Of a stretch of 64,000 bases of DNA, positions 1-45,540 are shown in pieces. Position numbers and translations under genes: made by a program. The notes under the pieces were generated by a model. The model was not told the DNA's origin and did no database searches. It was given only the letters and a program-made list of their open reading frames with translations. The stretch comes from Cornus controversa (Eukaryota; Streptophyta; Magnoliopsida; Cornales; Cornaceae). Location of the stretch: positions 55,132,770-55,196,769 of the forward strand of contig CM048846.1 in assembly GCA_026545225.1 (NCBI GenBank), read 5' to 3'. The first letter of the stretch is position 1, and each line of letters opens with the position of its first letter.

Positions 1-859
1 GCGAGAATGATGGTTTTGAGACATGATTTTGGGAGAAGGCTTGAATTTTGATTTTTGAATGATGCCAATAGTTTTAGCACGCTAATTGAATGTTGTATGA
101 GTGAATTAGGTGGTTGAATGGACTTAGGATGCCAAAAAGAGGCAAATGTATAGCTACAGGATTTTCTCAAGGTGCACTAGTCTGGGAATTTTGATGCATC
201 GAAATATCCATCTTAATGCATCAAAACTTTCGATGCATCGAAATGACAAGTTCGATGCATCAAAAAATTTGCAAGGTATTTATAAACCAAAAGTCCCGAG
301 AGTGGTTTTTGGTTGATACTTGTTCGATACATCGAAATCACTATTCACAGCATGCTTTGAAACTTGCCCAAACTTCAATCGGGCATAATTTCTTCGTATT
401 AAATTAGAATTGAGCATGGTTTTTTTTAAAATTGAGTATTTTTGGATTATATATCCAATGGTGTAGGTCTCAGTTTTACCTTCTAATCACATGAAGTGTT
501 AAGTCCTGGAAATGAGTGATTCATAGGTGTGGATAAATGAAATTTCCACTAAGGTGATATGGTTTGATGTAGGGTCCACTGAGGTTGGATAACGGGGAAT
601 CATACACATCTATGTGCAAGAATAGAGTTAAGTTGTGGTGGTATTTGAGGGTAAAGATGATCTATTTGGGCATACTGGACAGAAGTCACCTTTTTTTCTC
701 CAAGAGTCAGAAATCGGGGCGTGACAGCATGATATCAAAGCTTGATATTAGGGTGAGATCGGTGTCAGAATAGTTCACATGGTTGAGTGAATGGGTTCAC
801 ACTCGGGATTCAGAAGCGACCTGGGGGAGTTTCGGCAGTCCAAATTTTAAGGCGTGACA
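1..859 (+). repeat. 3' portion of a Ty3/gypsy-type LTR, 5' part outside the window
   Basis: The segment ends in CGTGACA, the same terminus as the LTRs at 1932-4734 and 43027-45540. Its last 150 bp share with 4540-4625 the phrase 'ttcacatggttgagtgaa' and a following 'gttcacactc'. A second terminus-like CGTGACA ends at 726 and is followed by a primer-site-like GATATCAAAGC, so the terminal module is duplicated. No coding sequence is credible here: the short open frames carry no recognisable motif. The orientation is inferred from the terminus. The family is related to, but not the same as, the element that starts at 1932. Confidence 0.6.
191..335. repeat. Cluster of palindromic word TTTCGATGCATCGAAA
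   Basis: Five copies of a self-complementary word lie within 145 bp. The copy at 228-243 is a perfect 16-nt palindrome. The others (starting near 191, 213, 251 and 325) differ by one to three bases. Spacers between the copies are unrelated. The cluster lies inside the LTR portion at 1-859. Confidence 0.7.
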
Positions 860-1931
860 TACATAATAATACAATCTTTATCAACACAAAAGTGATAGCA
901 ACGTGGCTCTAATTTTGGGTGTTAACAATTGCTCCACCGATTTCAAATGTCTTATGGCTAATCCAACCAATAAGTTTTTTAAAATTTAAAATATACATTG
1001 GAAGAAAACTTTTCATAACCATGGCTGATTGAACTAACATTTGGAATGAAACAACAACAAAGGAACTTTAAAGCAATCAACAATGTCATTTATTTGGGAC
1101 CACCACTAAGATGATCTTTATTCCACATCAGCCATAGTAACTGGATTAATCATGATTCTTCCACAATTTATCATGGTGTCGGATACCTATAGACCAAAGA
1201 GGAACTTCATCATCATACTTTATCATGGCATGATTACAATCGGCCAAGATCATGTTATTGTGTAGTGTCATACTGGGCGATTGGACTACTGGAAGTACAA
1301 CATTATGCCAGTATACTTGAATTTTTTCAGCAATTGGCTAAGAAAGTTCATTCTTTAGCCGATATATGTCTTTGAGCAATTCTTTAATATAAGCATCAAT
1401 TAAGCTCTTCTTCATGGTGATCAATTCTAATACATCTTGTTGTGCCCGCAAACCAACTGGCCCCCCCTCCCCATGTGGACATGAAGATTCACCGACTGTT
1501 CCCTATATGTATTGCAATGGGGTGTGATCTTGGAGGTGCTAGGGCTTTGTGTGTGTTTGTATGGTGTCACAACCCTAACACTGAGTTGTGATGTGTTAGG
1601 TCACCAACGACTTGGAATAATAGACATAAATTGGTTAAGTGTTGGCCCTAAGGTGTTTGATTACCACGTGGTCTTCAAAAAATTAGATTAATGAATTTGA
1701 GGGTTTGGTTATATACGGGGAATGTGTTAGGCACCCCACAACATTCGTCCGAACACAGTTACCTATTATCTTTCACGTTACTTGCGAGGATTGGGAAATG
1801 TGGTACTTTAAAATACCTCATCAGATGTTACCTTAGAGACTAGATCAAACCAATGAGTGATGAAATCTAATTTCCTAATTGGTATGAATTTGACAAATCA
1901 TTTGATTTGAGAAAAGATGAGTGTTTTGATA
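860..1931. other. Region without a recognisable gene
   Basis: AT-rich sequence between two LTRs. I found no credible coding sequence on either strand. A minus-strand reading around 1330-1490 stays open for a short stretch but has stops on both sides and no recognised motif. The part from 1560 to 1900, with phrases such as 'gtgttaggcaccccac', looks like leader or LTR sequence of another old retroelement, but nothing more precise can be supported. Confidence 0.5.
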
Positions 1932-2311
1932 TGTAAGAACCGTGACCATTTTTGGTCGGTTTTCTTGTATTTTAATTTAATTGTTATATTAATATTTTAA
2001 ATGATTATATATGTGTTTTAAATGTAAAACACATATTCAGATAACTTATTTGAGGTTTGGAAAAATTTTCAGAGCGTTCGGCAAAATTTGACTTTTTCGG
2101 GTCCAGTCAACCCAAGGGTGCGGGCCTCAGGGGTCCATAACATCCAAAAGTGTCAGAATGACTTCAAATTTGGAGGATAGCTTAAATAAAATATTTTACG
2201 CACTACAGAATCAATTTCGTGTCAATCGGAGTTAAAAACTCCTAAAACGAGTTCGGGAAGGTTTTAGTGAAAAGTAATGGCATTGTTGTAATTATGTGTA
2301 AGTCATTTTTC

Positions 2312-2320
2312 TATAAATAG
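2312..2320 (+). promoter_or_regulatory. TATA box of the 5' LTR
   Basis: TATAAATAG sits about 380 bp into the LTR and is followed about 30 bp later by a CT-rich stretch that would hold the transcript start. The same box occurs at 15240-15248 in the partner LTR and at 39529-39537 (minus) in the related LTR. Confidence 0.7.
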
Positions 2321-3130
2321 CAAAGGAGAGCACCCAGATCTATTCTCTTCTTCTCTTAGCCGTAAACAACATTATATATATATATATACATATATAACAA
2401 CTTCTTCTTCTTCTCTTCTTCATCAATTTAGAGGGATTTCGGGTGAGAATTTGAGTTTGTCGAAGAAGGAAGAAACAATCTACGCGACGAGAGCTTGAGA
2501 TTGATCAGTCCAAATTCAATTTTGGAGAAAGTTAGTTTTCAAAAAAATTGGAGGAAATTCAATTGGAAGTTCTTTCAATTTGAGGTAGGGATGCCTAACC
2601 CATAAAATCTGGGATTTTTGTGAGTATATTAGTTGTATATGACAACCAATTGGTTATGTGGAGTAATTAGATATTTTTCAACGTCCAAGCTTGCTAATTA
2701 TACCATTAAATGTGCTATTAATGTTGGTTGATGTAATTGTATGTTTATAAATGACTTAGAGACATTTATAAGCATGTTGGAATTGATTTGTGAATTTATT
2801 TGGTGGATTAGTGTATAATTGTGAAGGTGATTCTTATGTGTTTGATTAATTGCTTTAGAAACATGTTTTAGTGAAAAACATGATTTAATTGTCAAATTTG
2901 TGAATTTGGTGAAATGTGAAGGATACATGGCTAAGTGAAATGTGGAGATGTGAAGCATGTTCATTGTAAACACATATGATACTTAAATGGGAAGTCGTAT
3001 AAATGTGATTCTTAAATGCCTCAATGATTGTAAATTATGAATGCACATTTGATAAAATTATGGGGTTCATCTTCATTAGCATGGTGAGGGAGGTGAGCTC
3101 AATGTGAACGGTGGAATCCATTCGGTAAAA

Positions 3131-3262
3131 CAGTGAGGTATTCTGGTAAAGGTAACCCTTGTGAGGTATTTCGGTTAAGGTACCCTCATGGATTGATGTG
3201 TAGTGAGGTATTCCAGTAAAGGTAACCCTCAAGAGGTATTCCGGTAAAGGTAACCCTCTATA
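3131..3262 (+). repeat. Tandem repeat with core 'gaggtattccggtaaagg'
   Basis: Four diverged units of about 25-55 bp, each reading GAGGTATT-C-GGTAAAGGTAACCCT with small changes. The same block is present in the partner LTR at about 16077-16205, so it belongs to the LTR and predates insertion. Confidence 0.75.
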
Positions 3263-3987
3263 GGTGGGATTGGTTATCCTCGGGGATTGGAGACCAATGG
3301 ATGTGTGGAGAGGATGAGGGAGTTGTGCATATTATGTTGCATTTTACCTTGTTTATGATATGGTTATATTTTGTACATAATTGCTTAACATGTTAAATGC
3401 AAACGTATGTTTATGTGGTATTCACGGAACTCATGGAACTATGTTTTAGACATTCCTACTGAGCGTGTGGTTGCTCATCCTATGAGTATTAACATTTGTC
3501 AGGAAATGAATAAGAGGTTGTTGAGTCTCCCTAATAGAGTATTTGTGTGGAGTGAATTTTGGTTTCTTTCAAGGACAAATTATTGCTTTATTTGAATGTA
3601 TGTCCGGGTTGTGGACTATATGCATGAAATGAACATGTAAAGACCATTTAAGTTCCGAGAACATATATTGTTTATGCTTTACAATTTTATACACTTAAAT
3701 ATGAATTTTGGTGTATGTGATTCATGACTTATGATTTTAAACATTATAAGTATGGTGTTGAACATGGAAAGTGATTGATGATGTGAATGATGGTTTTATA
3801 ATTCCATTAATATCCATTTAAGCATGTTTATGATTTAAGGGTTAATTATATGAGATGTATGAGGTTTCGACATTCTATTTATGATTGGGATGTGATTAGA
3901 TGGGTTTTGTGTTTCGAAAATGTATATGTATGAGGTTTGGTGTAAGTTTCGAGCAAAATATGCTAAAAAGATGTTTCAAGTGAAATC

Positions 3988-4356
3988 AGTCGACTGACTC
4001 TCTTATATAAGTCGACTAATTTAAACATTGTGTTTTTGAGCTTTCTAGAGGGGCAAATTAGTCGACTGACTCCTTTAAATAAGTCGACTAATATAAATTT
4101 TCAATTAGTCGATTGACTCCTTTAAATAAGTCGACTGATAGAGGTTTTCAACCAGTCGACTGCTCCTTTTAATAAGTCGACTGATAAAGATTTTGAACTA
4201 GTCGACTGCTCTTTTAAATAAGTCGACTGATATAGATTTTTAAATATGTGGAAGTAGTCGACTAACTCTTTTGAATAAGTTGACTATTTTGGGCAGAGTG
4301 TTTTTGAACTTTCTAGAGCGACAAATTTGTCGACTGTTTCTTTCGATAAGTCAACT
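3988..4356. repeat. Cluster of palindromic word AGTCGACT (about 14 copies)
   Basis: AGTCGACT or a one-base variant starts near 3988, 4010, 4059, 4082, 4106, 4128, 4153, 4175, 4200, 4221, 4256, 4277, 4328 and 4349. The copies come in pairs about 22 bp apart, joined by a spacer like GACTCCTTTAAATA. The partner LTR is truncated before this point, so conservation cannot be tested here. Confidence 0.85.
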
Positions 4357-4737
4357 GATAGAGATTTCAATTACTTCTTTTAAATAGGCATAACTTTGTC
4401 GTTTCAAACCCGATTTAAGTTATTCTTTTTTTGAAATCGAGTAATTTTGAATCCTCTTTCCATTGGCATTAGTTAATATTATGTTGCACACACACATGAG
4501 TGTGTTCGTGATTAAGCTTCTGCTGTAATTATGAATTAAGATGGTTCATATGGTTGAGTGAACGAGTTCACACTCAAAATTTGGGCTTAGACCGGGAGAG
4601 TCCTGGTGGTCTAAATTTTGGGGTGTGTTAGATTGGTATCAAAGCATGGTACCAGAGTGAGATTTTGGTCAAATGTGATGGTTTCTTACATAATCACCCT
4701 CAGTTTTTGGGGTATCAGAAATCAGGGCGTGACAGCT

Positions 4738-4750
4738 TGGTATCAGAGAT
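4738..4750 (+). other. Primer binding site, tRNA-iMet type
   Basis: TGGTATCAGAGAT lies three bases after the LTR terminus and matches the plant initiator-Met primer site TGGTATCAGAGC except near its end. A second similar site, TTGGTATCAAAGC, lies at 4633-4645 inside the LTR. Confidence 0.8.
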
Positions 4751-5152
4751 CTAGGTCGAAACCATCGGGGTGACGGGTAATGGATGGATCAAGTATAGTT
4801 TCATGATAGGTTAGAACATTGAGTTTGATAATCTAGAAATGCATGTGGATATGACACAGTTGATATGAGAACTTATGTGCATGTGAAATGTGCTTACATG
4901 ATAACATGATGAGTGCTTATGTGATAACATGTGATGTATGTTATATGTTGAAATGAAAATGTGCTACGTGATAACATGTGATACGTGTTAACTTGAGAAC
5001 ATGTTGGGTGATTAAATATGTTTTGTAAAGCATGTTTATATGCTACGTGTACAAATGATAACACGTGCTTATGTTGTGAAGTGGTTTGATCATGTTGAAT
5101 ACTAACATGTGATGACTTGTTATGTTAAATTATATCTTGAATTGATAGAAAT

Positions 5153-6147: not shown

Positions 6148-6228
6148 CAGAGGAGGCTCAGACCGTGACTGCATAGTCGATCCATAGAGCTATGCCTCCA
6201 CCACAACCTTACACAGAGTACGAGACCA

Positions 6229-8006
6229 GTGAGGGGATTTGCCCCTAGTGCATCCACACAACAGTCAAGTGTTCAGGCTGTTGGAGCACTGGATCAGAGG
6301 GCACATGGCAGGGTTTATGCAGTGACACCTGTAGACACCTCAGTAGGACCCTTAGTGGTTAGAGGTATATTTCTGGTATATAGTTCTTGGGCACTTATAT
6401 TGATTGATTCTGGTGCATCTTATTCATCTATTGCTACATCATTTGCACAGGTACTGGGGTTAGAGACTTGTCCATTGGGTAGAGCTATTTGTGTTCATAC
6501 GCTAGTGGATGGTACATTGATTCTTGATAGAGTGTGCCAGGGATGTGCTATTGAGATAGCCGGGTGGACACTTGAGTTTGATTTCATTTTCCTTGATATG
6601 AGTAGTTTCGATATCATTCTAGGGATGGATTGGTTATCAGGGTTTTGTACTACTATTGACTGTTTTAGAGGGAGAGTGACGATTTGTACACCCAAGGGCG
6701 ATTGCTTTTGTTTTGTCGGAGATCGGAGTGACTCCTATACTTCACCATGTTATGGCATTAGCAATCGAGAGTGACACAGTTTTATCTTGGCTAGCCTTTT
6801 GGCCGAGGGAGAGGAGATTTCGAGAGAGGTATACCCAGCAGTGGTGTGTGAATACCTAGATGTATTTCTAGAAGATTTAACGGACTTACCTCTTAAGAGA
6901 GAGGTAGAGTTTGGGATTGATCTTATACCTGGTACGATGCCTATTTTTATGGCACCATATCGGATGGCACTGGCAGAGTTGGTGAATTTAAAGCGTCAAT
7001 TGGATGATTTGAAAGCTAAAGGCTTTATTAGATCGAGTGCATCGCCATAGGGAACACCGATGTTATTTTCCAAGAAGAAAGATGGTGCTTTAAGATTGTG
7101 CATTGATTATCAAAAGTTGAATCACGTGATAATCAAGCATAAGTAATTATTGCCGAGGATAGACGACCTATTTGATCAATTGAAGGGAGCTCACTACTTC
7201 TCAAAAATTGATTTAAGGTCGGGGTTATTACCAATTGAGGGTGAAGGATGAGAATATCCATAAAATAGCTTTTCGTATGTGGTATGAACATTATAAGTTC
7301 CTTGTAATACCATTCGGTTTAACCAATACACCAGTGACATTCATGGACTTAATGAACCGTGTGTTCCATGAGTACCTTGATACTTTTGTGGTAGTATTTG
7401 TGGATGATATACTTGTGTACTCATCTTCGGAGAAGGAGCATGAGTTACACTTGAGGACAGTTTTACATATCCTTAGAGAGCACCGATTGTATGCCAAGTA
7501 TAAAAAGTGCGAGTTTTGGCTCTAAGAGGTGAAATTCCTTGGACATGTTGTTTCTGGAGGTAGAGTTACAGTTGATCCATCTAAGATTGAGGTTGTGATG
7601 AGTTGGGAGAGTCCGAAGAATGTTTTTGAGATTTGGAGTTTCTTCGGTTTAGCGGGCTACTATAGAAGGTTTGTTAAAGACTTCTCTAGTATTGCAGCAC
7701 TGATGACACAACTTATTCGTAAAGGTGTGAAGTTTGTGTGGAACGAAGCATGTGAGTTAGCCTTTCGTGAATTAAAAAAACGGTTAACTACAACTCTTAT
7801 TTTGGTGGTACCCGAGCGTGGCTTGGGATATGTGATCTATTGTGATGCTTCGAGAAGCAAACTAGGTTATGTGTTGATGTAATGTGACGGGGTTGTTGCT
7901 TATGGGTCTAGATAATTAAAGACTCACGAGCATAACTATCCTACCGATGACCTAGAGCTAGCAGCGGTGGTCTTTTCTTTGAAAGGGTGGAGACACTACT
8001 TGTATG
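6229..8006 (+). pseudogene. pol: pol of the Ty3 element, first part: protease, RT, start of RNase H
   Basis: The aspartic protease active site LIDSGAS is at about 6400-6420. Reverse transcriptase runs from about 6790, with the [17 protein letters not shown] block near 7070-7120 and the catalytic [10 protein letters not shown] near 7393-7422. RNase H begins with the VIYCDAS motif near 7832. Stops occur at about 6775, 7048, 7144, 7522, 7880 and 7912, and there is a frameshift near 7225, so this is a fossil. The frame breaks off after RHYLY at 8006, where a hAT element is inserted. The remainder follows at 13197. Confidence 0.9.
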
Positions 8007-8394: not shown

Positions 8395-8772
8395 TCCAAG
8401 GGATCGGCTTCATCTCCATAATCGGTAAGAACTCTTTCTCTCTCTATTCGATTCTCTCTCTCACACTGATGCACACATATGATCTTTATATGTACTGTGT
8501 ACAGATCAGACCCTACTCGGCTACTCCGCCATTGATCGCCGACGACCTCAGACACCCCAAAGATCGGCTTCATCCGGTAAGAAATCTTTCTCTCTCTGTT
8601 CGATTCTCTCTCTATTTGATTCTCTCTCTCACACTGATGCACACATATGATCTTTATATGTACTGTGTACAGATCGAACCTTACTCGGCTACTCCGCCAC
8701 TGATCGCCGGTGACCTCAGACACCCCAAAGATCGGTTTCATCCGGTAAGAAATCTTTCTCTCTCTGTTCGAT
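8395..8772 (+). repeat. Tandemly repeated leader unit of the hAT element
   Basis: A unit of about 170 bp occurs twice nearly identically (8466-8635 and 8636-8772), with a partial third upstream (8395-8465). Each unit has a TGTGTACAG that could be a 3' splice site, about 70 bp of GC-richer sequence with ACCTCAGACACCCCAAAGAT, then CCGGTAAGAA that could be a 5' splice site, and a CT-rich tract. It lies upstream of the transposase. The open frames across it are by-products of the repeat and are not called as genes. Confidence 0.75.
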
Positions 8773-10056
8773 CTAAATTTATAAATTGAAATCTCAACTT
8801 GAAATCTCAACTTGGAGGCATTGAATATATCAGTAATTTATAATTTTGGTGAGCTAAACAGTTGTAAGATTATATGTTTCAATTTCTTTTCTTCGTCTTT
8901 TCAACCAAATAAAAAGGTAGGTAAGATTCTTTCTAATGCAAGATATAAAGAAAAAGAATTCAAGGATGTAATTCTTTTGACATTTCAACATAGGCAATGC
9001 AGCAATGCAACTTTTTTGACATCATTCTTCTTGCTTGTTGCAATTCAAGCAACAACACCCAAAAGCTCTCCGCCCCCTAAAAAGCCATCTGTCGTGAAAA
9101 AGTGGTGTTTCTCTACCACTATTAATCTTTTAATTTTTTTTATGGAACGTTTCTTCTGATGATCCAACTTGCAAGAAGTATTCTTTGTCTAATCTTGTCT
9201 AGCCACTCACATTTAACACAACTACACATATCTTCTTCAAATGGCTTTGCACCTCTGCTGAAAATCAATTATTCTGGGCTCGCTTAGGTCCCCAGGCATA
9301 TTAACTTAGAAAAAAATGTTTCTTAACTACTCTAACAGAACTGTGGTTGGGAGTGTTGAAGTTCCAAATGTGATATTGAGAAATATATTTATAAGAACAG
9401 AAAAAAGAAAAAAATTGATGTTTTTATGAAATGCATTTCTATCTGGTTGCTAGAAGACTTTGCCTCCTGTTATAGAGAAATCTTGTCAATATTGTTATTT
9501 TTATTAAATGAACCTGTGCATCAACCATGAGGTCCATGAGAGTGTTTAAAGCTTCAAATTATGATAATGATGATTGATGAGTAGTATTAACTTACCTTTT
9601 TCCTCTTGTTCCTTTTGTTTTGTTCTCCAAGTAAAATTTGATTTTGAATTGAAATAGCATATTTAGTTGCTTTAATACTCTCTCCCTGTTTAGTTGAGGC
9701 TTTTGATAGTTGCAAGTCACCAAAGGCTTGGATCAACTTCTTCTTACATATGATACAACTCTTCCTAGTTCTCTTCAATCCTTAATTAATTAACCAAGGA
9801 AAAAAAAAATTAATTACAAGAAACAAATTGATGATAAACCAAATTTAGAAATTTGATCAAATCATGTTGATCTATATATCATATGTATGTTTGCAAAAAG
9901 ACTGTACACACAACCTTTGTGTTTTTTTGTGATTGCATAAAGTCTCCTTCTAGTCCAGTTTTTATATACCTCTAATATAAATTTTTTGTCGGTGAAGGTG
10001 ATATTTTTAATTGAAATTTCAATGCTTGTTTCTATGCCAGCTTGGTAAATTGGAAG

Positions 10057-12268
10057 ATGTCACAGGGACATAGTAAATTGGTAGATTTGTCAACAAATGA
10101 TGATTCATCTCCAACCAATTCTACTCCCAATTCAGCTCCTATTTCTGCTCCCGCTCCTAATCCTCCTCCCATTACAGCTCCCAATATAACTGTCAGCTCA
10201 GTGGCCGAGTCATTTGATGAATCCATTCCTGATTCAACAATTTCGTCCAAAAAAAGAAAATTAACATCAATTGTTTGGAATAATTTTAAGAAGGTAACCA
10301 TAGATGGGATAGATTATGGTATTTGTAACCATTGTACTTCAAAGTTGAAAGCACCTAGTAGGAATGGAACAAGTAGCTTGCGTGAACATTTAGCAAGGTG
10401 TCTGAAACGAAAAAACAAAGATATCAGACAACAAGTTTTGCAAGCTAATTTAAGAAAGAATGATGGACAAGTGGAATATCGTAATTTTGTGTTTGATCAA
10501 GAAGCTGCACGAGATGAGCTTGCTTCCATGATCATAGTACATGAGTATCCACTCTACATCGTTGACCATGTCCGCTTTCGGAGATTTTGTAATTTACTTC
10601 AACCTCTATTTAAGGTGGTTTCTCGAAATACAATCAAGAGTGATATCATGAAGGTTTATGAATATGAGAAGGCTAAAACAAGTTGGTTGTTAAACAATCT
10701 TGAAAGTAGAATTGCCATCACTTCCGATATGTGGACTTGTAATCACACAAAGAAAGGTTTCATGGCATTAACAGCTCACTTCATCGATGATTCATGGGAG
10801 TTGCAACAAAAATTTTTGAGGTAGTATTACTTTCTTCTTCTATATCTTTCTCTTTGGTCATTTGGAATTCACTTATTTTCTTTAATTTACTTGTTATATT
10901 TTTGTTAATTTTGTATTATTTTTAATTTTAATTCATTTTAGGTTTATGTATGTGCCCGCTCCCCATAACAAAGAAGTTCTTTCTGATGTTCTCATGAATA
11001 GCTTTTTGGATTGGAATATTGATAGGAAGTTGTCCACAATTACTTTGGATAATTGCTTCACAAATGATGCCATCGTTGGTAGTCTTTTAGATAAGCTTAA
11101 TTGTAATTCACTTTTACTTGAGGGAAGAGTTTTTCACATGAGATGTTGTGCACACATCTTAAACTTGGTTGTGAAGGATGGGTTAGAAGTAATTGGGGAT
11201 GGGATAGAAAGAATACGTGATAGTGTTCATTTTTGGACAGCAACCCCAAGTAGAATTGAAAAATTTGAAGAAGCTGCCAGCCAATTAAAGATCACGTGCA
11301 CTAGAAAGTTAGCTCTTGATTGTAAAACCCGTTGGAACTCAACATATCTCATGCTTCAAGTTGCTTTGCATTTTAAGGATGTGTTCCCACGATTAAAACA
11401 ACGTGAGAGACTTTACACTAGATTGCCAACTGATGAAGATTGGGAAAAAGGAAAAGAAATTTGTGAAAAATTGAAATTATTTTACATTAGCACAGAATTG
11501 TTTTCAGGTACTAACTATCCTACTGCCAATTGTTATTTCCATAAAGTTTGTGAAATTAGAGAGGAATTGTCTACATGGCTTCAAAGTTCAAGTGAGATCA
11601 TTAGAGTGATGGCATCAAAAATGATGGAATTTTTTTTGAAATATTAGGATGTTTGTCATGTGATAATGGCCGTGGCTGGTGTTTTAGATCCACGATATAA
11701 GATGAAGCTAGTTGAATTTTATTTTCGAGAAATTTATGGAGATGAAGATTTTATTGAAATTCAAAAAGTTCGCCAAAGTGTTTATGATTTGGTTTGTGAG
11801 TACCAAAGCAAGGCAATGTCGGATGGAACTACTAATGTTGGTGTTTCTTCTTCTAAGTTTTCTTCTTTGAGTGCAGCTACTAATTCGGATAATACTAGTA
11901 TCGATAAGTATTATAAGTATATTAAGTCAAGTGCGTCTAGTGTGCATACAAGGACTGAGTTGGACTTTTACTTGGAAGAAAGTGTGCTGCCTAGAACTGA
12001 TAATTTTGATGTGTTGGCTTGGTGGAAGTTGAATGGAGTCAAGTTTCCTATTTTGCAAAAGATTGCTCGAGATGTTTTAGCTATTCCTGTGTCTACCGTT
12101 GCATCAGAGTCTGCTTTTAGCACTGGTGGTCGAGTGATTAGTCCACACCGTAGTAGACTTCATCCATCTACTTTGGAGGCTTTGATGTGTGCTCAAAGTT
12201 GGTTAATGTCTCAAGAAGATAATGCCAAAGTGTTTAATGAATTATTTTCTAATGCAATTGTTAACTAA
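10057..12268 (+). CDS. hAT transposase, two coding exons, one in-frame stop
   Basis: Exons 10057-10820 and 10942-12268 join across an intron with GT at 10821 and AG at 10940-10941, and the frame continues cleanly. I chose the ATG at 10057 because a likely 3' splice site (TCTATGCCAG) ends at 10040 just upstream. The N-terminus has a BED zinc finger (CNHC then HLARC, about residues 93-120). The middle holds the RNase H-like core with AITSDMWT, the CAAHILNLV-like motif (here CCAHILNLV) and KTRWNSTYLML, then VLDPRYKM. The C-terminal dimerisation domain (AWWKLNG, STVASESAFSTGG, LEALMCAQSWL) is complete. A TAG at 11645-11647, after the residues FLKY, is the only defect I see; relatives usually have Trp there. 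The protein would cut and paste this element. Confidence 0.9.
10821..10941 (+). other. Intron of the hAT transposase
   Basis: 121 bp, T-rich, GTAGTA at the donor and TTTTAG at the acceptor. Splicing keeps the reading frame (AG from exon 1 plus G from exon 2 gives Arg). Confidence 0.85.
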
Positions 12269-26760: not shown

Positions 26761-28986
26761 CAGACAGATCAACAAAGTAACCTCGAGGAATCATTGAAGA
26801 TGTGCTCATTAAAGTGGACAAGTTCTATTTTCCTGTTGATTTTATTGTACTTGACACTGATCCGGTTCATAACCCGAAGAGACACATTCCAGTGATCCTT
26901 GGTCGACCTTTCTTAGTTACAGCTGATGCTTGCATAAATTATAGGTGGGGATCATGGATATTTCATTTGGCAATATGAATGTCAAGCTTAATGTGTTCAA
27001 TGCTATCCAACACCCTCCAGATCAGAGTGATGTGTTTTGCATGGATGATATTGATGAATGTGTAGAGGAAGTTATTTCATCCTCTATATATAAAAATTCC
27101 TTGGAGGTATGTAAGTCTCTTTATGACTATGAGACACTTTATGATGAATAGTTGTGTAAAGAGGTGAATTCCATGTTAAAAGTGGATGCTATTCAGACTA
27201 CTCTGCCATGGAGAATTCCAATTGAGCCATTACCGTCTCTCTCTAGCACTCCCCTAGTGCCTTCATTGGAGTACCCTCCGCCATTAGAGTTGAAGCGTTT
27301 GCCTGACAAGTTAAAGTATGTATTTTTGGGGGCACAGAAAACTCTTCCTGTTATAATTGCCTCTGATCTGACAGAAACTCAAGAGAAGAGCTTAGTAGAG
27401 GTCTTATATCAAAATTGTGAAGCAATTGGGTGGAGTGTTGCTGATCTTAAGGGCATTGATCCCTCGATTTGCATGCACAAAATTCATTTAGAAGAAGGAT
27501 GTAAACCATCTAGAGAGGCACAGAGGCGACTAAACCCCAATATAATGGAGGTGGTGAAGAAAGAGGATGTCAAGTTACTTGAGGCAGGCATAATTTATCC
27601 GATTTCTGATAGCACATGGGTGAATCCAACACAAGTGGTCCCTATGAAGTCTGGTCTTACTATTGTTCCTAACTCTATAGGAGAGCTTGTTCCACAACGT
27701 ACTGCCACTGGTTGGCGTGTTTGCATTGATTATAGAAAGCTCAATTCCATGACAAGGAAAGATCACTTCCCTCTTCCATTCATTGATCAAATACTTGAAA
27801 GGTTAGCTAGTTAGAGCTATTATTGCTTTCTAGATGGCTACTCTGGTTATAACCAAGTGGCTATGGATCCAGAAGATCAAGAAACTACTTTCACTTGTCC
27901 CTTTGGTACTTTTGCTTATCGTCGTATGCCATTTGGATTATGTAACGCTCCGACGACATTCTAGAGGTGTATATGATGGCCATCGTTTCTGACATGGTGG
28001 AAAAATTATTGGAGGTGTTCATGGATGACTTCTCTATTTTTGGATTATCCTTTGAAAATTGTTTGAGCAATTTATCACTTGTGCTTCAAAGGTGCCGAGA
28101 ACGAAATTTGGTACTCAATTGGGAGAAGAGCCATTTCATGGTGAAAGAGGGTATTGTATTGGGCCATATTGTTTCAGAGAGGGGTATTGAAGTTGATAAA
28201 GTAAAGATCGACCTAATTGCAACTTTGCCTCATCCAACTTCGGTAAGGCAAGTTCGATCTTTCTTAGGCCATGCTGGGTTCTATAGAAGACTCATCAAGG
28301 ATTTCAGTAAAGTTGCTCGACCATTATGCCATTTGTTATCTAAAGATGTTCCATTTACGTTTGATGAAGACTGTGTGCAAGATTTTGAAAAGCTTCAGTC
28401 TCTGTTATCCTTTGCACCAATTATACAATCTCTAAAATGGGCTCTACCTTTTGAAATCATGTGTGATGCCTCTGATTATACAGTAGGAGCAGTGTTGGGA
28501 CAAAGAGAAGAGAAACGACCACTTGTCATATATTACGCTAGTAAGACTTTCTCTGATGCCCAACTCAATTATACAACCACAGAGAAAGAGCTTCTAGCTG
28601 TAGTATTTGCCTTGGACAAGTTTCGTTCTTATTTATTGGGGTCGAAGGTGGTTGTCTACTCTGATCATGCAGCATTGAGACATTTATTGGCGAAGAAAGA
28701 AACCAAATCGCGTCTTATTCGATGGATTTTATTATTGCAAGAATTCAATTTGGAAATAAAAGACAAGAAGGGGACTGAGAATGTGGTTGCGGATCATTTA
28801 TCTCGGATTGAGTTTGAGCAGGTGATCGATGCATTACCTATTCGAGACTCATTTCTGGATGAACAATTATTTGGAATTTGTGAGATGGAAGTTAATGGGC
28901 AAAGGTTAAAGCATTGTGTGGAAGGATGTGTGCCAAGAAGAGACGTAGAGTCCGTTAACTTGACGGATCCCGTCTATCCGACTTAA
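26760..28986 (+). pseudogene. pol: Athila pol: reverse transcriptase and RNase H, fused to an integrase tail
   Basis: Protease end and linker lie at 26760-27151. Reverse transcriptase starts in 27152-27814 ([23 protein letters not shown]), has a stop at 27812, continues with YSGYNQVAMDPEDQ and GTFAYRRMPFGLCNAP, then shifts frame near 27965. 27967-28986 is open: FMDDFSIFG (catalytic YVDD region read as FMDD), RNase H with IMCDASDYTVGAVLGQ and DHAALRHLLAKKE, and VVADHLSRIE. Right after the residues LFGICEM the frame goes into VNGQRLKHC and LTDP, the end of the integrase, so the zinc finger and catalytic core are gone without loss of frame. Confidence 0.9.
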
Positions 28987-29029: not shown

Positions 29030-29870
29030 GGTTTTGTATGTATTTCTATCCTTTAATTTCTTTAATTTTCTTTGATTTTAATTTTTAGTTTTAGTTTTCT
29101 TAAGTTTTCTTTCAATTCTAGTTGCGTTTTAATGTTTTTTCTTTGAGTTTTTGATGTATAAGTTGCTTTAAGAGGATGCCAAGAGGTGTACCGAGGTATT
29201 TGGACTCAAGACGGGTGAAAAAACGTGCTCTCGGTCGACCTTGGGCGATGGAGACTCAAAAATTACAAGTCCCGGTCGACTTTGGGCGATGAAGGGTCAA
29301 ACAGGTTCCAGGAGGGGGATCGATCGCCCCAATTAAGGGGGATCGATCGCCCCTTGATATGTTTCAAGGATGACCACCACCAGCTGGGCGATCGATCGCC
29401 CATGGCTGGGGGGATCGATTGCCTAGGCCCAACATGGGGCTGCCTGAATTTTTAAGGCCTATAAAGGCCACCTCTACTCCTTTGTTGATACTACTTGCAT
29501 CCTTGACCTCTTTGAGCTCCAATTCAAGTCCTACTTCAACCGAAAAATTATTTTCTTCAATTGGTGAGTATTAAACAAGTATTCAACCTTAATCATCATC
29601 AACATCAACATCAAACCGGATTGATAATCATTACTTCTCAAAGGAAGCTCTCACTTTTTCAAGTTCAACATCAAAGTAAGTGAAGTTTTTCTTTGGTGAA
29701 ATTGTGCAAATCTTTTTGAGGGCTTTTGAAGACCAAGTTTGGGGGATCAATTTGGTGCATTTAATTGTTCAATTTGGGTGAAAAAATTGCTGAAAAGAGG
29801 AGGTTGAAGATACAATTTTATTGTGCACGCCAAGTGTTTGGTTTAATTCCTCAACCAGACTTTTTCTACT
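29030..29870 (+). other. Spacer between pol and the third reading frame, with a palindrome cluster
   Basis: Non-coding leader-like sequence. It includes the GATCGATCGCCCC cluster (29215-29420), a poly-CT and TCAAC-rich stretch (29500-29640), and AT-rich DNA. No gene is seen. Confidence 0.6.
29315..29422. repeat. Cluster of palindromic word GGGCGATCGATCGCCC
   Basis: Four copies at about 29315-29330, 29337-29353, 29386-29401 and 29410-29424. The third is a perfect 16-nt palindrome; the first two read GGGGATCGATCGCCCC. Related half-words (CGGTCGACCTTGGGCGAT) occur twice just upstream at about 29231 and 29273. Confidence 0.8.
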
Positions 29871-29873
29871 TCT

Positions 29874-31085
29874 ATGGCACTAAAGAGAGCAATTCACCAA
29901 GGTGCTTCAAGTTCACGCAATCCTCGCCTAACGAGGCATGATTCAACACCCGATTCTTCGAGATCTCGCCGAGAAAGTATTCATGAGAGATGGCATCCAA
30001 GGGCTTTGAACTTTGAAACAACGTTTGACATAGCCGAACTATATGGTATGTTTCCCGAGACACGATGGGGGATTTCTGACATCTGTCGTCGTCGGTCGGC
30101 ATCGATTTTTGTTCCACTCTCTTTTATTATCTACCCGAGGCTTGTCAAGGTATTTTATCAGAACTTAATGCCAAAACCTGATGAGTGGGATGTGCTTATT
30201 TCTTCAGTAGATGGAATAGTAGTTCAGGTGGATATGTCATCCATTGCTATTGCCATGGGTTGTCCTCATGAGTGTCCAGATGATTTGACTCATATCTATA
30301 CTCCTCTACCCGATGATTTTTTAGTGGGTAATTTGGTTGCACGTTTGTGTGCTAATCAATTTTTCGGGCTGAAAAGGAATGCAGCTTCCAAGTCTTCTAT
30401 GCCAAATCATTTATGGTTCCTTGATGTTGTGTTGCTCAAGAATATATGTCCCATTCGACATAAAATCGAGAGACGTCAAGAGTTCCTCAGATCTTTATAT
30501 GCCATATATTTTGGGCATTGGCTGTCGTTCCCATAGATTGTTTGGGGCCAGATGGAAAAGTTCTATTCCAAAGTTGTGGCCAAGGTACTAGACAGTGCAA
30601 GTGACTGGGAGTTTCCATTCCCTACTATCATTCATCAGTTGCTTATTGCACAGGGGTATGCAGTCCATGAGGATGAGCTTGCCTTTCCACATGATATTCA
30701 TTATGGCACGCACGACTGGAATCTGAGCTGATCTCATATGCACCAGAGAATCATTGCGGCGCCTGGTGAAGTGTCTCGATTGGCCCAGGGAGGAGAACAT
30801 GTAGATATACCACCACCGGTAGAAGATCCAGAGGAGATGGAAGCAGAAAAAGAGGAGGTACATGCACAAGATGGTGGCCATGATTATCAGTATTTAGAGG
30901 GGCAGATTGCTGGGTTGACAGCTCAGTTTGGCACCCTACAGACACAGTTTGGAGCAATGAGGAAAGAGATGGCAGATCACTTTTGTGAAACTCGCCAAGA
31001 CCAACTAGAGATGAGGAGGATACTGCGTGCACTGATGCGCCAGGCAAACTTGGATCCAGATGCTCAGTCACCACCACATCCTTGA
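29874..31085 (+). pseudogene. Third reading frame of the Athila element (env-like position)
   Basis: The first part (29874-30536, 220 residues) has the 'putative plant transposon protein' type domain (NFETTFDIAELYGMFPETRW and the CPHECPDDLTHIYTPLPDDF region) common in Athila/Tat elements. A TAG at 30534-30536 breaks the frame, which then continues (VWGQMEKFYSKVVAKVL, LLIAQGYAVHEDELAFP). A second stop lies near 30730. The C-terminal part (30738-31085) is rich in Glu and Gln and would form a coiled coil (about residues 55-105 of that stretch). No signal peptide or membrane anchor is evident, so an envelope role is not supported by sequence. Confidence 0.75.
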
Positions 31086-32727: not shown

Positions 32728-34209
32728 TGATCGGCGTTGAATGTTACGCATTCTAGCCTCTTAACTTGTGTATTTTATTCTCTTAGTGATAGATTATTTT
32801 GTTATTGTACTTCGTTTTAGTTAAAACCATGATTTTGGGCTTTTAAAGATGACATCCAAGATGGTTAGATGAATCCTACATCAAATGGATCCATTCAACC
32901 ATTTATTTTAACTCAAATCAGCCCAAGGAAGAGGTCCAAGAGAATTACAGCTGCTTAAGAAGGTTTCGGGCCTGAAGCCCAAATCTGCGCATAATACAGT
33001 CTTAATCCCATTCTAGAAAACGGACTAGAAGTCTTATTTTCGAGCCTCAAATCAACTTAATTTTGGTATGAGTTGAACGAAATTCGATTCAGCACACTTT
33101 TGTATTTCACGAAAATTCCATGAATCGGACTTCTAGTGGGTCAAAAGTTGGGCCGAACGTCAGTAGGAAAAACCCACCTGATTAGTGCTGCGGGAAAACC
33201 TAATTAATTCGTAATTGGATTAGGACTTTGGTGTATTCTCTTGGGGCATAAAGTGAAGGATTAGAAGCAGAGTTGGGAGAGCTTGGGGAGTCATTACAGA
33301 GATTGGAGAGTCTGAGAGGGCTGAGAACTAAACAGAAGACATACTTTGCAGAGCCATTGGAGAACGAAGTCATACGCATAATTCGTGAAGATGATGCATT
33401 CTTCCTCAACAGTTAAAGCTTCTTCTTCTACCATGAACGATTAATTCATCCACTAGGGTTTTGATGTAGCCCTAACAAAGCATCAATGGTTTGATTGTTT
33501 TAATTATTGGGGACCTTTATATACATGCATAGATTGTGTAATTGAGAGGATTCTTATTATAGAATTGAGTAATAAAAGTCTTGTAAATTCAGTTTCAATG
33601 ATTTCTTATCTTGTCTTAGATATTTAGTTGTTATTATTGAACTCAATCTCTCTTATTTTCTGTGATCATGAGAGCGATTATTCCACAATGGTAATCACTG
33701 AATATATTATTAAGAGCTTTGATGGATTATGCCTAGAGAAGATGAACCATACTGCACCCTAGATTAGAGTAGTTAGGCAGATGACCCATACCAATCGAAG
33801 ATAGTCCATGGCTTAGCCTTAATCGTATGTTATCTTCTTGACGGATGAAGGTGAGCTTGTAGCCACCGACACCATTTATGCATGATGTAATCCCCCATAA
33901 TTGATTCAATTGACCATTGATTGTGGAGTTAGTGGTGAAGTCAAATATCCTAGATTTCTCTCATATTATCTTCACTTTCTATTTCCTTTGATTTATTTTA
34001 TTTTGCTTTTTAATTAGTTTAGTTTAAAAATCAAAATTCTTTTCTCTTAAATTTAATTAGAATTAATTCAGTATTCCAACTCATCAGACCATAATCCCTG
34101 AGGTACGATACCTCTTTCGATAGCCCTATTCTGGAAGGAATTCGTTCTATTGCGAAGTGTGAAAATTTTTAATTGATATACTTTTTGAGTCACACTCACA
34201 CACGAATCA
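32728..34209 (+). repeat. 3' LTR of the Athila element (1482 bp, full length)
   Basis: TGATCGGCGTTGAATG to CACACACGAATCA. It is the reference copy for the LTRs at 16785-18282 (minus), 25162-26184 and 46514-47944 (minus). A TATA-like TTTATATACA sits at about 33517-33526. Confidence 0.92.
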
Positions 34210-34750: not shown

Positions 34751-36020
34751 TGACGTATATTTTTGTAATTGACAATCTTCGGTGTCAAACTCAAACATGA
34801 TCGAGTTGCATTCTTTAAGTTATATTCTTGTCATTGATCATTTAATTGAATTCATAGAGTGAGCATGAAGTTCTATACCAACTATGCAAATATTCTTCAA
34901 AAGATGAAGCTTGAATATTTGAAAGAAGACATCCATGGTCTGAACAAGGATTAGATTGATTAAAGTTTTGAAATGGTTTCAAGTGCATAAGGACATCATT
35001 GATAACATATGAGAGTCATGTAGTCCAGGTAAAGTGGTGAGAACACATATATTTCAAAGTAGGACGTTCTGACCTTGAATAAAGGGGTTTTTAAGCAAAA
35101 CAGTGAAATATTCAAGGTTGGATCGGTCCAAGTAAAGGTTGGATCGGTCCAAGAGATATCAACATATTATTTTGAGAGATCAACAGGGCTGGACCGGTCC
35201 AAGGCTTCTGGTCCGTGGGATTGTGCCTCTTTTGTCCTATTTTGACCCAGAACTTTCCTAAAATGTTGGGACTTATTTTCTATTAATTTTTAACTTGTTT
35301 GTCAAGGAAAATTAGGATTTTTAATCTTTATAAAAAATCTCATATGATTTCTCTCTCATTAAGCTTTCAACAGATTAAAATACATATTCTAGAGAGAGAA
35401 ATCACTGAGATATTTTTCTAGAAAAGGTTTTCCCCTCAAATTTTTTGTTTATATTTTTGAGAGCACACACATATTCATAGAGTGATTTAGGGTGTCTCTA
35501 TTTGCTTAATCAATAGTTTGAAGACTGCATTAAAGATTTATTCGTGATCAAGTTAGTAGATTAGTTTCTTCGACAACTGTTCGTTGGTGAGCAAAGAGAA
35601 GAAGATCGAATAACGAAGGGGACAGAATACTTACTGAGTGTTCGTGTCTTCCAATTACCCTTCTGAGAGGATTTTGATGTTAACCGGGAATTTATGACAG
35701 TTGGACTAGGTACTCGCAATTGTAAGCCTGAGATTTTCCGCATCAAGTTCTTGTCAGAGTGGAATTTTGCTTTGACAATAATGGATTTGCTTCTCCGGGG
35801 CTATAAAGGCTCACCTGTGGTTTTTCTCGATCTTGGTTTTTCACGTATATCTGGTGCATTCTTTACTTTAATGCACTTTATTTTATTTACTTGCTTTATA
35901 GATTGCTTAAATTTTAATTGGACTTAAAATTAGATAATCTTAAAGATTAAGCAAAAATCGAGTAAACCTAATCATCCCCCTCTAGGTTTTAAATCTAACT
36001 TTCGCACCGCGTAACTCACA
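34751..36020 (+). repeat. 5' LTR of a Copia element
   Basis: It starts TGACGTATATTTTTG and ends GTAACTCACA directly before TTGGTATCAGAGC. A TATA box (TTTATAAAAAA, about 35327-35337) and a cluster of GGATCGGTCC words (35119-35213) lie inside. The open frame at 35694-35927 falls in LTR sequence and shows no known domain, so I do not call it a gene. Length about 1270 bp, as in SIRE-like Copia elements. Confidence 0.75.
35119..35213. repeat. Cluster of palindromic word TTGGACCGGTCCAA
   Basis: GGATCGGTCC at about 35119 and 35141, and the perfect 10-nt palindrome GGACCGGTCC at 35191-35200, followed by a half-word GGTCCGTGGGA. In the U3 part of the Copia LTR, 110-210 bp upstream of its TATA box. 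Confidence 0.65.
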
Positions 36021-36021
36021 A

Positions 36022-36034
36022 TTGGTATCAGAGC
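36022..36034 (+). other. Primer binding site of the Copia element
   Basis: TTGGTATCAGAGC, a complete match to the plant initiator-Met primer site, two bases after the LTR end. Confidence 0.85.
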
Positions 36035-36538: not shown

Positions 36539-37149
36539 TTGCTAATGACTGCATAGTTCTGTAATACTTGTTGCATTTGCCAAATGTGAAATGAACGGAT
36601 GATCGCCCTTTATCTAGTTGATGACTGAGCATGATTAAATTTTTGTATAAGATAGTTAATTTCATTTTTGTAATATTGCATTGCTAAGGGACTAGCAATA
36701 TGTAAGTTTGGGGGTGTGATAAGTGTTCAATTCTATGCATTTGAACCCTTTTTATTGCATATGTTAGTCCCATTTCTACGTTTACCAAGATATGTTTACG
36801 GTATTTTTGTGTTTTTGATGTATTGCAGGTCTTGTAGTAAAAGGAGCAAAGTTTGAGGCTATTTGCAGCTGAAGAGAAAAGTCAGAATTGCAGCCAAGGC
36901 ATCTCGATCAATCGAGATGTTGATCTCGATCAATCGAGATCTCGATTGATTGAGATCTTACTTCGATTGATCGAAATCTCGATCAATCGAAATCCAATCT
37001 CGATTGATCGAGATTCTGCAGAGCCACTTGCCCACTTGCTCACCTGCTCTCCCACTTGCAACAAAATCCCCCTTTTTGCACGATTTAGAGGGATTGTCTG
37101 ACTTGAACAAGACCTTTGGGGACCTTCTTGATATAGTTGGTATATATAT

Positions 37150-42764: not shown

Positions 42765-43011
42765 CTTGCTGTATTGATAACAAGAAGACATTTTAAAAAT
42801 CTAAAGCATGAATATCATTGTCCAATTCTCTTCATGCTCACTCAACACCATGCTAAATTACTTCTCAAATAGTATGTTACATCAACAAGTAAGCACATAA
42901 GCATTTCCATGTAATATGTATTTATCATTAAACTGACACTCACAAGCTCAAGTTCGCAATTCTACACATGGTTCAACCCCACTTGTCATCTAAAGGAATT
43001 CAAACCCAGTA

Positions 43012-43024
43012 GCTCTGATACCAA
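43012..43024 (-). other. Primer binding site of the minus-strand Ty3 element
   Basis: TTGGTATCAGAGC on the minus strand, next to the LTR end at 43027. A second, less perfect site (TTAGTATCAGAGT) lies at 43129-43117 inside the LTR. Confidence 0.85.
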
Positions 43025-43026
43025 AT

Positions 43027-45540
43027 TGTCACGCCCCAATTTTTTATTACCAAAAATTGAGGGTGATTAGGTTTTCACATTATCAAATCAAATCTCTAAT
43101 CTCACCATGATACCATACTCTGATACTAAGTTGTCACACCCCTATTTCTGACACCCGGTTAAGAGTGAGGGAAATGGGGGTGAACGGTGATTATCAAACA
43201 TCCAAACCACCCAATTACGGAAGCTATCATTACGTATGTGATCATCTATGCGTAAACTCCTCATTATTCATCTCAATGGGTTCCACATTGGTCTATGTAC
43301 CCTTACATACTCATTCATGTTCTAAGGTTTGAAAAATTCCATTTTTGTCCAGTTTCGGTCGGCTGAAACCTAGGTTCAATTGACTTTCAGGTTCCTAATT
43401 CTGTTGGTCGGTTGGAGAATTGCTTCGGTCGACCAAAAGGGAGCTTTCGGCTAACTGAAACCTTCGTTCAGTCGTTCGAAACAGGTACCCCATTCGCAAA
43501 TATTTGTGATCTCACAATTTCGGTCGGCTGCTATAGAGACTAGGCAATTGAAAGTTCAAAAATGTCCCAAAACCTGATTTTCACAAGTCCATAGGCATCC
43601 TTTAGGTTCATACAATCATTTACCACTCAAAACATATATAAATCTCCACAAAATTCATGCATTTACAACTCAAATATACGAAGTCCAGACATTCCATAAC
43701 TTTGCTCTAAAATATGCATTCCCTTGAAGCATAAGCATTCATAATAATCCATAATGTACATAGCAAGTTAAGAAATATAAGATCCTCATTTCCAAAATCC
43801 ATTTCCACATTTCCATACATGGAAGATTTAAAAAGGATCCATTAAGCATACATTTATCCAAAAGGTCATACGCATGCCATATGTGGCATTTACATTTGAA
43901 GTTCATGTACAAGTGAAGAACCAAATGTAAAGGCAACACTACAACTATGGTCCACATGCCACAAGCCAACATGGACATCTATCTACACATCCAAAAGAAC
44001 GTCTCCAAAATGAACTCAAACATCCGTTTGTGCACTCTAAGCTTCCTCCTCCATTGGAGCTTTATCTAAAAAAGAGTTTGGGGGAAGGGAGTGAGCAGAT
44101 CAATGGCTAAGTAGGACTGATCCACCTGACTCTACCTTAACTCATGCAGCCATGCATGAATGCACATAAAATCTCTAAATGTCTACATGTTATGCCTCAA
44201 TGAATTTTCATACTCAAAACATTCATGTTTTTGAAATAATGCGTGATGTCTCACATTTCAACATAAAACAGTTTATAAGGAAATACAATTCGTAAATAAA
44301 CTCACACCACGTATACCTAGAAATCACTTCAACTGAGGACTTTTTCTTATCACAATTCCAATAGTAAGGAACTTGTCGAGATCATAAACTCTACTTACGC
44401 TTTTCGGGCTACTAATCTGACGAAGCGACATCTGCTTGGCCTAGTTTTGGGCCTTGCACCCTAGGGCTCTAGACCCTTCTTAATTCTCACATATGCCCCC
44501 AAAAATCACAAATTTTCACATATTGCATTTTATCACATAATGCACCAATCTCAAGCTTGTCACAATTCTCATCAAATGCATCACATAAACCAAGTTAATG
44601 CATATCATCCTCAAATCATACATATTCAATGCTATCACACCCAACTCATGGAAATCACAATACTCATGCATTTTAAAGAAAATAATCTTTTTCATGCATT
44701 TACTCTTCTTATGGAGTCAAATCACACAACTCCTCAAATGAACACAAATAAAAAATGTATTCGTAAACATCACCAAGTCATGCATAATACATAATTTTAA
44801 TATATACATATTCACAAACTCATATTTTCACAAAATCTCCAAAGTAAAAGTTCATGTCACAATTATGTGACCTATAGAATCAAAGTAAAAATGAGATTCA
44901 CACCCCTACCTCAAATCTCAAGCTTGTCCTAGCAAATCTCAAATTTCCAGCCCTTTTCTCCTTGTTGAAAATAACTTTTGTTCAGTTCAAACCAGAACCC
45001 TTGCCGAGTAAAGCAAACCTTTTGCCTTCGGCGTCTTCCAAATCAAAGCCTAACTAAGCCCTTCGAAATGTAGAGAGAAGGGAGATAGATGAAATGGGAG
45101 AGTTAGAGAGAGAGATATTACTGTAAAAGTGATTATATCTCAGCCCCTCTAGATATTTATAATATCTTGGGGTGCAAAATGACTAAAACACCCCCAGAGT
45201 CACTTAACGTACCCTCCCAACCTTTGTTTTTGATTTTTAAAGCGGCTATGACTCTGAAATCGCTTTCTTAACTCTCTAAACATTCCGTTTGGTTCATAAC
45301 CAAAAATCATAGTTTTTCAAAAAAAAATCAAATTTTCGGGTCCACTAGACTGCATCCCGGGGCCTTGTTGACCCAAAAAGTCAAACTTCTCCAAATATTT
45401 TGAAAACTTCCCAAAATCCTAAAACAACTTCCCAAACATGTTTCTCATAATTAAAACATGTTAAACATCATTAAAAATACATTTAAGGCAAAAATGATGG
45501 TTAAAATGAAAATCGATCAAAATTGGGTCGGGTCTCTACA
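43027..45540 (-). repeat. 5' LTR of the minus-strand Ty3 element (2514 bp)
   Basis: On the minus strand TGTAGAGACCC to CGTGACA. TATA box at about 45163-45154. It holds a cluster of TTTCGGTCGACCGAAA-like words (43362-43528). Related by its first half to the long LTR at 18707-23022. No genes. Confidence 0.85.
43352..43528. repeat. Cluster of words related to TTTCGGTCGACCGAAA
   Basis: Five or six imperfect copies: TTTCGGTCGGCTGAAAC (about 43352), GGTCGGTTGGAG (about 43406), CTTCGGTCGACCAAAAG (about 43422), CTTTCGGCTAACTGAAAC (about 43444), CAGTCGTTCGAAAC (about 43469) and TTTCGGTCGGCTG (about 43519). Confidence 0.6.

Follow-up and report, generated by a model that had tools for sequence, protein, structure and literature searches.

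Palindromic word arrays with a recurrent spacing of about 22 bp in Ty3 and Sirevirus-type retrotransposons of Cornus controversa: candidate sites for symmetric dimeric factors

In a 64,000-nucleotide stretch of the Cornus controversa genome (C2:55132770-55196769 of the 772 Mb assembly, over which all genome-wide counts were made; hereafter the window), six clusters of short self-complementary words lie in retrotransposons. To judge from sequence, clusters 1, 2 and 6 stand in long terminal repeats (LTRs) of Tekay type, cluster 3 in the internal part of an Athila-type element, cluster 5 in an Athila-type LTR and cluster 4 in a Sirevirus-type LTR. The names Tekay and Athila are putative assignments from the typical features of these lineages. 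The words differ between clusters, and neighbouring words are often 20-23 bp apart. We see about an even chance that the clusters are cis-acting DNA arrays bound by one or more symmetric dimeric factors that would act on transcription or chromatin. The six clusters are as follows.

189..337, plus strand: cluster 1, five copies around TTTCGATGCATCGAAA, at 189, 211, 228, 250 and 322.
3986..4358, plus strand: cluster 2, 14 copies around AGTCGACT, in seven doublets 21-22 bp apart.
29314..29424, plus strand: cluster 3, four copies around GGGCGATCGATCGCCC, spacing 23-49-23.
35118..35202, plus strand: cluster 4, three copies around TTGGACCGGTCCAA, spacing 21-50.
36901..37014, plus strand: cluster 5, six copies around ATCTCGATCAATCGAGAT, spacing 22-16-21-16-21.
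43353..43533, minus strand: cluster 6, five decayed copies related to TTTCGGTCGACCGAAA.

A strict blind scan of the window (12-mers with at most one unpaired position of six, at least four G/C and at least three similar copies in 400 bp) returned exactly five clusters, at 191-335, 3986-4230, 29316-29399, 35119-35201 and 36904-37011. All five are among the six places named in an earlier note on this DNA, and 100 block-wise dinucleotide shuffles of the window returned none, so the claims that the clusters are real and exceed those of shuffled sequence hold. Words were present at all six places. Cluster 6 (43352-43528) was missed by the strict scan: its five copies carry 2 to 4 mismatches to the proposed word, and TTTCGGTCGACCGAAA is therefore a reconstruction from decayed copies. 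Similar decayed words, judged by eye, occur in a relative, L067 (L-numbers, L002-L074, denote loci fetched from the genome). In the best single copies, 8/8 paired positions match in clusters 1 and 3, 6/6 in cluster 2, 8/9 in cluster 5 and 6/7 in cluster 4; asymmetric word centres were found in both orientations. When inner loops of 0-7 nt were allowed, one further three-copy cluster appeared, at 8425-8758 within a tandem duplication (0 in 25 shuffles). In a harder control that used window loci with any loosely repeated 12-mer, a near-palindromic seed was found in 7/70 against 3.6 expected. The symmetry of 12-mers by itself is a modest excess and weak evidence; the case is carried by the longer word symmetry together with the genome data.

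The earlier note had called the words unrelated. They are indeed different words, but four of the six (one of them reconstructed) share the layout CG-N6-CG, and the word of cluster 5, at 36903, recurs in Tekay-type LTRs. The CpG observed/expected ratio was 1.2-2.1 in clusters 1, 2, 5 and 6, compared with 0.4-0.6 in their flanks.

Neighbour distances were counted in 11 clusters, with one representative per family picked after the lists were seen and the array types of L054/59/71 and L051 left out. The results showed that 46 of the 70 distances were 20-23 bp, whereas random placement gave a mean of 19.9 and a maximum of 33 in 2000 draws. This spacing was present among words whose delimited length is 12 to 18 nt (the core of AGTCGACT is 8), while the gap between the words of such pairs ranged from 2 to about 10 nt. 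Because the spacing is the same for words of different length, it is the distance between centres that is kept, not the loop length. The ordered distances were 22-50-22-25-22-25-21-25-21-35-22-50-21 in cluster 2 and 22-22-22-48-22 in L056; L004 and L009 repeated the spacing of cluster 5 exactly, and L037 and L073, each with five words, showed 22-16-21-16.

Genome-wide, where the backward-read version of each word served as the control, pairs of AGTCGACT with a gap of 4-30 were found at 1593 places, against 58 for the control. The places listed were the first on contig C1 rather than a random draw. Among the first 50 listed, 42 doublets were 20-23 apart, though 12 to 38 was allowed; grouped by spacer, 12 of 18 groups among the places listed had this distance. 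Pairs of TTTGAG-N4-CTCAAA were found at 1696 places (control 0); within a permitted range of 18 to 41, the first 50 listed gave 33 doublets at 21-22 and 16 doublets at 39-41. The claim that the spacers are not conserved stands for their sequence, which mostly varies, but not for their length. One locus, G000:C1:2168410-2168707, has AGTCGACT doublet starts 72, 124 and 72 bp apart, the 22+50 pattern of clusters 2, 3 and 4.

Genome-wide, TTTCGATGCATCGAAA has 147 exact sites against 0 for its control. Arrays also recur in sampled Tekay-type LTRs. A sample of such LTRs was chosen by the LTR-end junction pattern, blind to words; the pattern has 593 + 677 sites genome-wide and 0 in the backward control. 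The 32 ends taken were the first 12 and next 20 places listed, all on contig C1, and were searched up to 1170 nt from the LTR end. An array was detected in 12/32 ends compared with 5/80 random tiles from ten random 10-kb stretches (p 1.1e-4), one of the five positive tiles being a cluster 5-type LTR. L073 was rejected as a carrier, because its array sits in a nested Athila-type LTR, which leaves an own array in 11/32 ends (the p value refers to 12/32). No array was found in 20 shuffles of all 32 ends, and mirror repeats, which are symmetric without being self-complementary, occurred in 0/32. At 80% identity over 250 nt the 32 ends formed 21 groups, six of them with an own array. When the three Tekay-type ends of the window were scanned alike, clusters 1 and 2 were found and cluster 6 was missed. 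The Tekay arrays are found 240 to 955 nt before the end of the LTR, and their words include TCGAT-NN-ATCGA (L053/55/60, L074), TTTCAG-N4-CTGAAA (L056/57/66), TTTGAG-N4-CTCAAA (L058, also L002) and the type GGTCCSGGACC (L054/59/71). Outside the 1170 nt searched, L051 carries another array, at about -1359 to -1116 relative to the LTR end. Its six GAGTA-NNNNN-TACTC copies (five are GAGTAGAGAATACTC) stand within longer TCACC...GGTGA arms and are spaced 36-49 bp, a longer symmetric unit with a different spacing.

The words change between related LTRs. Nine ends form one group (support 93/80, drawn open) when a tree is made from the last 330 nt. This group contains three different own words, those of L058, of L056/57/66 and of cluster 6, as well as further members without a detected array. 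The array can be aligned between cluster 1 and L053-type LTRs; the word centre is GC on one side and TA, CA or TG on the other. Between L058 and L056/66 the arms differ at the family level, G.C against C.G, and among TTT-S-AG-N4-CT-S-AAA words in the fetched loci, nearly all from few arrays, 29/34 have matching arms and 5 are mixed. These comparisons support the view that self-complementarity is probably kept while the word changes between sister Tekay families. A clean paired arm change in every slot was considered and dropped: L058 shows the clean G.C for C.G swap in 2/6 L066 slots, the other four have one arm changed only or arms that no longer match, spacer identity is 23/53 and slot homology is weak. 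The cluster 5 word, ATCTCGAT-NN-ATCGAGAT, occurs in both Athila-type and Tekay-type LTRs with spacers that look unrelated by eye, and the strict family-specificity proposed earlier finds no support. A word common to unrelated lineages points to a host factor.

For the cluster 1 LTR family, 40 copies were scored among 3125 candidates genome-wide, and decay was analysed in 30 LTR copies (L005-L034, the window's own copy included), which hold 124 words, 1 to 7 per copy. CpG transitions made up 106/175 of the changes at word positions 2-15. No paired changes beyond shuffles were seen in this family (766/992 pair cells paired vs 763), and no covariation beyond shuffles in the cluster 2 doublets (93.5% paired vs 91.9%). 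A single fixed slot was compared across 29 of these copies, all but L016: transversions numbered 22/406 in the word and 140/2349 in the spacers (p 0.73). Inserted copies of this family thus decay without sign of selection on the words, and neither the compensatory arm changes nor the slower decay of words that the earlier note had proposed to test for was found. Its idea of upkeep is favoured by the symmetric words across sister families, but not by the inserted copies. Since words decay like spacers in this family, any upkeep would act in replicating elements; neutral decay is expected of dead copies and therefore does not refute upkeep in active ones.

The hosts were characterised by their LTR ends and domains. 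Tekay-type LTRs were recognised by the 3' end GGCGTGACA and a tRNA-Met-type primer binding site (PBS) or PBS-like word, at 726, 4734 and 43027 (minus strand); at the LTR ends behind clusters 1, 2 and 6, GTGACA-NNN is succeeded by a PBS resembling TGGTATCAGAG. The host of the cluster at 191 is corrected to a Ty3-type LTR. The host features, including open reading frames (ORFs) and the reverse transcriptase (RT) region, are as follows.

1..726, plus strand: 3' part of the Tekay-type LTR hosting cluster 1, ending in GGGGCGTGACA, then PBS-like TGATATCAAAGC; the LTR start lies outside the window.
1932..4734, plus strand: 5' LTR of Tekay-type element A, with a likely TATA box at 2312 (TATAAATAG) and the PBS at 4738-4749.
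6169..6774, plus strand: aspartic protease (RVP_2) of element A, Pfam PF08284, E 7e-38.
27946..28986, plus strand: RT/RNase H of Athila-type element C, Pfam PF17917 and PF17919.
29847..30536, plus strand: ORF downstream of cluster 3, possibly env-like from its position after pol; weak PF20167 match, below cut-off.
36019..36034, plus strand: LTR/PBS junction CA-ATTGG-TATCAGAGC of the cluster 4 element, equal to the Sirevirus 16-mer in the available text of PMC2829016.
36717..38145, plus strand: Athila-type LTR with cluster 5, preceded by the polypurine tract-like AAGTTTGGGGGTG; further copies are L004, L009 and L037.
43027..43600, minus strand: 3' portion of the 5' LTR belonging to Tekay-type element B; the LTR ends at 43027, PBS 43023-43012.
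42741-42175, minus strand: gag ORF of element B, whose Pfam domains are gag, protease, RT and RNase H.

Clusters 3, 4 and 5 stand upstream of TATA-like boxes. Cluster 3 lies between RNase H and the further ORF, and TATAAA at 29460 follows it by about 36 bp. Cluster 4 precedes TATAAA at 35329 by about 130 bp, and cluster 5 is 184-297 bp into its LTR, with a TATATA tract about 130 bp further on, at 37141. Element A has Pfam domains for protease, RT, RNase H and an integrase-end type SH3_Tf2-1. The homology of its 5' LTR to its 3' LTR (14869-16789) ends at 3847, before cluster 2, and the TATAAATAG box lies 370-380 bp into both LTR copies.

On the reading of the clusters as arrays bound by dimers, each word would be a two-fold symmetric site, about 8-20 bp long, to which a dimeric DNA-binding protein attaches, and sites about 22 bp (two helical turns) apart, frequently in doublets, would place neighbouring dimers on the same side of the helix. 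Arrays in LTRs or before an internal TATA box would set the transcription or chromatin state of the element. A changed word would spread through the array in replicating elements to give a new array, and the words of inserted copies would then decay neutrally, largely via CpG transitions. Symmetry, with a spacing independent of word length and spacer sequence, fits symmetric dimers on one DNA face, and from these patterns we infer a bound protein, its dimeric form and its role in transcription or chromatin. The earlier note had offered kissing loops or a dimeric protein; the independence of spacing from word length favours the protein, while RNA keeps a possible part in the Tekay arrays. A tentative extension, to which we give clearly less credence, is a geometry-first module common to Ty1 Sireviruses and to Ty3 Tekay and Athila elements, in which the boxes stay symmetric and in a 22-bp register and their letters may be rewritten arm with arm. 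If so, each rewriting would retune the array to another member of a dimeric factor family, a fast route to change the host regulator or escape silencing. Palindromic LTR boxes have been described as a Sirevirus trait. That Ty3 LTRs hold them too, under a spacing rule valid for most of the different words, hints at a regulatory device that plant LTR retrotransposons have in common. The word and its 22-bp register provide a handle for finding the binding protein, reading the factor of each family and testing a change of regulator.

Several findings weigh against such bound arrays. By the 1170-nt scan, 21/32 Tekay-type ends have no own array, so the array is either not essential or often decayed. 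The 20-23 bp spacing occurs in 0/10 distances of L054/59/71 and 0/5 of L051, and the recurring distances 16, 49-50 and 70-82 are not whole helical turns. Part of cluster 2, at 4059-4240, consists of 46-bp units in tandem (87% matches), contrary to the earlier statement that the clusters are not simple tandem duplication, and such duplication could partly give fixed spacing. The CpG ratio is not raised in cluster 3 (0.70 vs 0.73) and little raised in cluster 4 (0.71 vs 0.48). Finally, the likely TATA box of element A precedes cluster 2 by about 1.7 kb, and the array is therefore probably transcribed.

Action at the RNA level, in which neighbouring words form hairpins or loops pair between genomic RNAs (dimerisation, packaging, leader), is the main rival, chiefly for the Tekay arrays, which are probably transcribed; overall we regard it as unlikely. 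Predicted sense-strand folds of five of the six clusters were more stable than shuffles (z -2.9 to -10.6; cluster 6, -1.2). However, the antisense strands fold similarly (z -2.6 to -8.0), and since palindromes must fold on both strands, we rejected folding as a discriminator. The position of the Tekay arrays, before the LTR end and, in element A, past the likely TATA box, speaks for RNA. Rice Retrosat2 belongs to the Del lineage. Its R region is given as LTR nt 245-2266 and its U5 as 2267-3292 in the available text of PMC3485330, and by analogy the array-bearing part of the LTR would be transcribed. A place in the packaged 5' leader, possible for the Tekay arrays, is unlikely for clusters 3, 4 and 5, upstream of their TATA-like boxes. 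Against RNA pairing also stand the constant distance between centres over variable gaps, the lack of covariation in the cluster 2 doublets and the cluster 1 family, and the absence of Rfam matches at gathering scores in the window. The symmetric word changes between families fit DNA sites and RNA stems equally.

Less probable again is that the words have no function, and that palindromes multiply by template switching or slippage in reverse transcription and replication and then decay. The partly tandem cluster 2, the variation from 1 to 7 words per copy in one LTR family, and words that change as fast as spacers at the tested slot without paired changes are all consistent with this. It leaves unexplained, however, the 20-23 bp distance with different words and spacers, the symmetric words in sister families, the placement in LTRs and the same word in Athila-type and Tekay-type LTRs, and mirror repeats were found in none of the 32 ends.

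It is very improbable that a VANC-like anti-silencing protein, encoded by the element itself, recognises the arrays and that the words co-evolve with it: by analogy, non-coding family-specific arrays, family turnover, gain and loss of units and concerted change resemble the VANC targets of VANDAL elements in the available text of PMC5735166, and four of the six clusters have CpG-rich words, but VANC targets lie in DNA transposons, have a known element-encoded binder and carry motifs in one orientation, whereas the words here are symmetric, with asymmetric centres in both orientations, and one is common to unrelated lineages.

The earlier note knew of no named feature type, but one has been described. 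According to the available text of Bousios 2010 (PMC2829016), the palindromic repeated motifs (RMs) of Sireviruses are dyad-symmetric, family-specific and CpG-rich, with at least eight copies per element; in the LTR they stand a short way before the TATA box, with additional boxes just 5' of env, the boxes define a CpG island, and a CGG-CCG core is present in all 13 listed elements except Tnd-1. The clusters here resemble RMs in their dyad-symmetric repeated word (five of six by the strict scan), and the proposed core of cluster 6 is identical to an RM published for Vitis, CGGTCGACCG. The layout CG-N6..8-CG occurs in four of the six words and in 12/13 of the published RMs, the others having a central CG, and this ties the words to RMs. 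In position, clusters 3, 4 and 5 are upstream of TATA-like boxes and cluster 2 is downstream of one; cluster 3 precedes an ORF that may be env-like. The CpG ratio is up in clusters 1, 2, 5 and 6, not in 3 and little in 4. Copies number 14 in cluster 2 and 3 to 6 elsewhere, in broken elements seen with one LTR each. The differences are that most hosts are Ty3 elements (Tekay-type and Athila-type) and only the cluster 4 LTR has the Sirevirus junction. The CGG-CCG core occurs only in the reconstructed cluster 6 word (absent from clusters 1, 2, 3 and 5; CCGG in cluster 4). A spacing of about 22 bp does not appear in the available RM description.

The known kind is the Sirevirus RM; the Ty3 hosts, the spacing rule and the word common to unrelated lineages were not met in the literature searched and, with the different but symmetric words of sister families, are taken as new. 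No report of such arrays in Ty3 LTRs was seen in this literature, from which most subscription papers were absent. We take Del elements to be of the same lineage as our Tekay-type hosts. LTRs of Del elements carry plastic CpG islands (Cruz et al. 2014, PMC4029996), which are similarly CpG-rich, length-variable LTR segments, but in its available text the paper reports none in its eudicot group, the variable island is near the LTR 5' end and 'palindrom' is absent. Palindromes in maize Sirevirus LTRs are small-RNA hot spots (Bousios et al. 2016, as reported in the available texts of PMC5311732 and PMC10760457); they form clusters in a cis-regulatory LTR segment and are predicted to be strongly structured, and our arrays are probably comparable on both counts. 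SIRC, as described in the text available for PMC10342631, are also short repeats with diverse spacers in mobile elements including ATHILA, but are defined by direct repeats, about 57% without a palindrome. Insertion-target palindromes do not fit, being short, weak and at insertion sites in the available part of PMC6911290. LOB-domain factors, reported in the accessible text of PMC10118128 to discriminate palindromic DNA, are a lead only; we claim no binder.

Further features of the window were noted. Short homologous blocks are common to the 1..726 LTR part and the LTR part at 3848-4760, and behind the cluster 1 LTR end stands a second GGCGTGACA, ending at 859. The Tekay-type ends look doubled: an LTR-end or PBS-like motif returns after about 100-130 bp, which would be the picture if the LTR had absorbed part of the leader (719 + 852 and 4634 + 4738, plus strand; 43139 + 43034, minus strand). 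Element A contains a 168-bp head-to-tail tandem duplication (8436-8771, 95% identical) and nested hAT-type transposase ORFs (10015-12268, plus strand), with Pfam hAT-like_RNase-H in 10886-11647. Searches with the RT/RNase H and protease ORFs found no relatives in viral contigs. An LTR-like family starting TGATCGGCG has four copies, at 16785-18282, 25162-26186, 32728-34209 and 46514-47944, two of which seem to bracket Athila-type element C while the other two look solo; the strict scan found no palindrome array in them. Nor did it find one in a Copia element with 184-bp LTR-like repeats (55889-56072 and 59944-60127; PBS 59943-59932, minus strand), unlike in the Sirevirus-type LTR. An ORF at 47959-48651 (plus strand), adjoining a solo LTR, has no Pfam match, a coiled-coil look and a zinc-knuckle-like motif at its end, and is, we presume, reminiscent of a Sirevirus gag.

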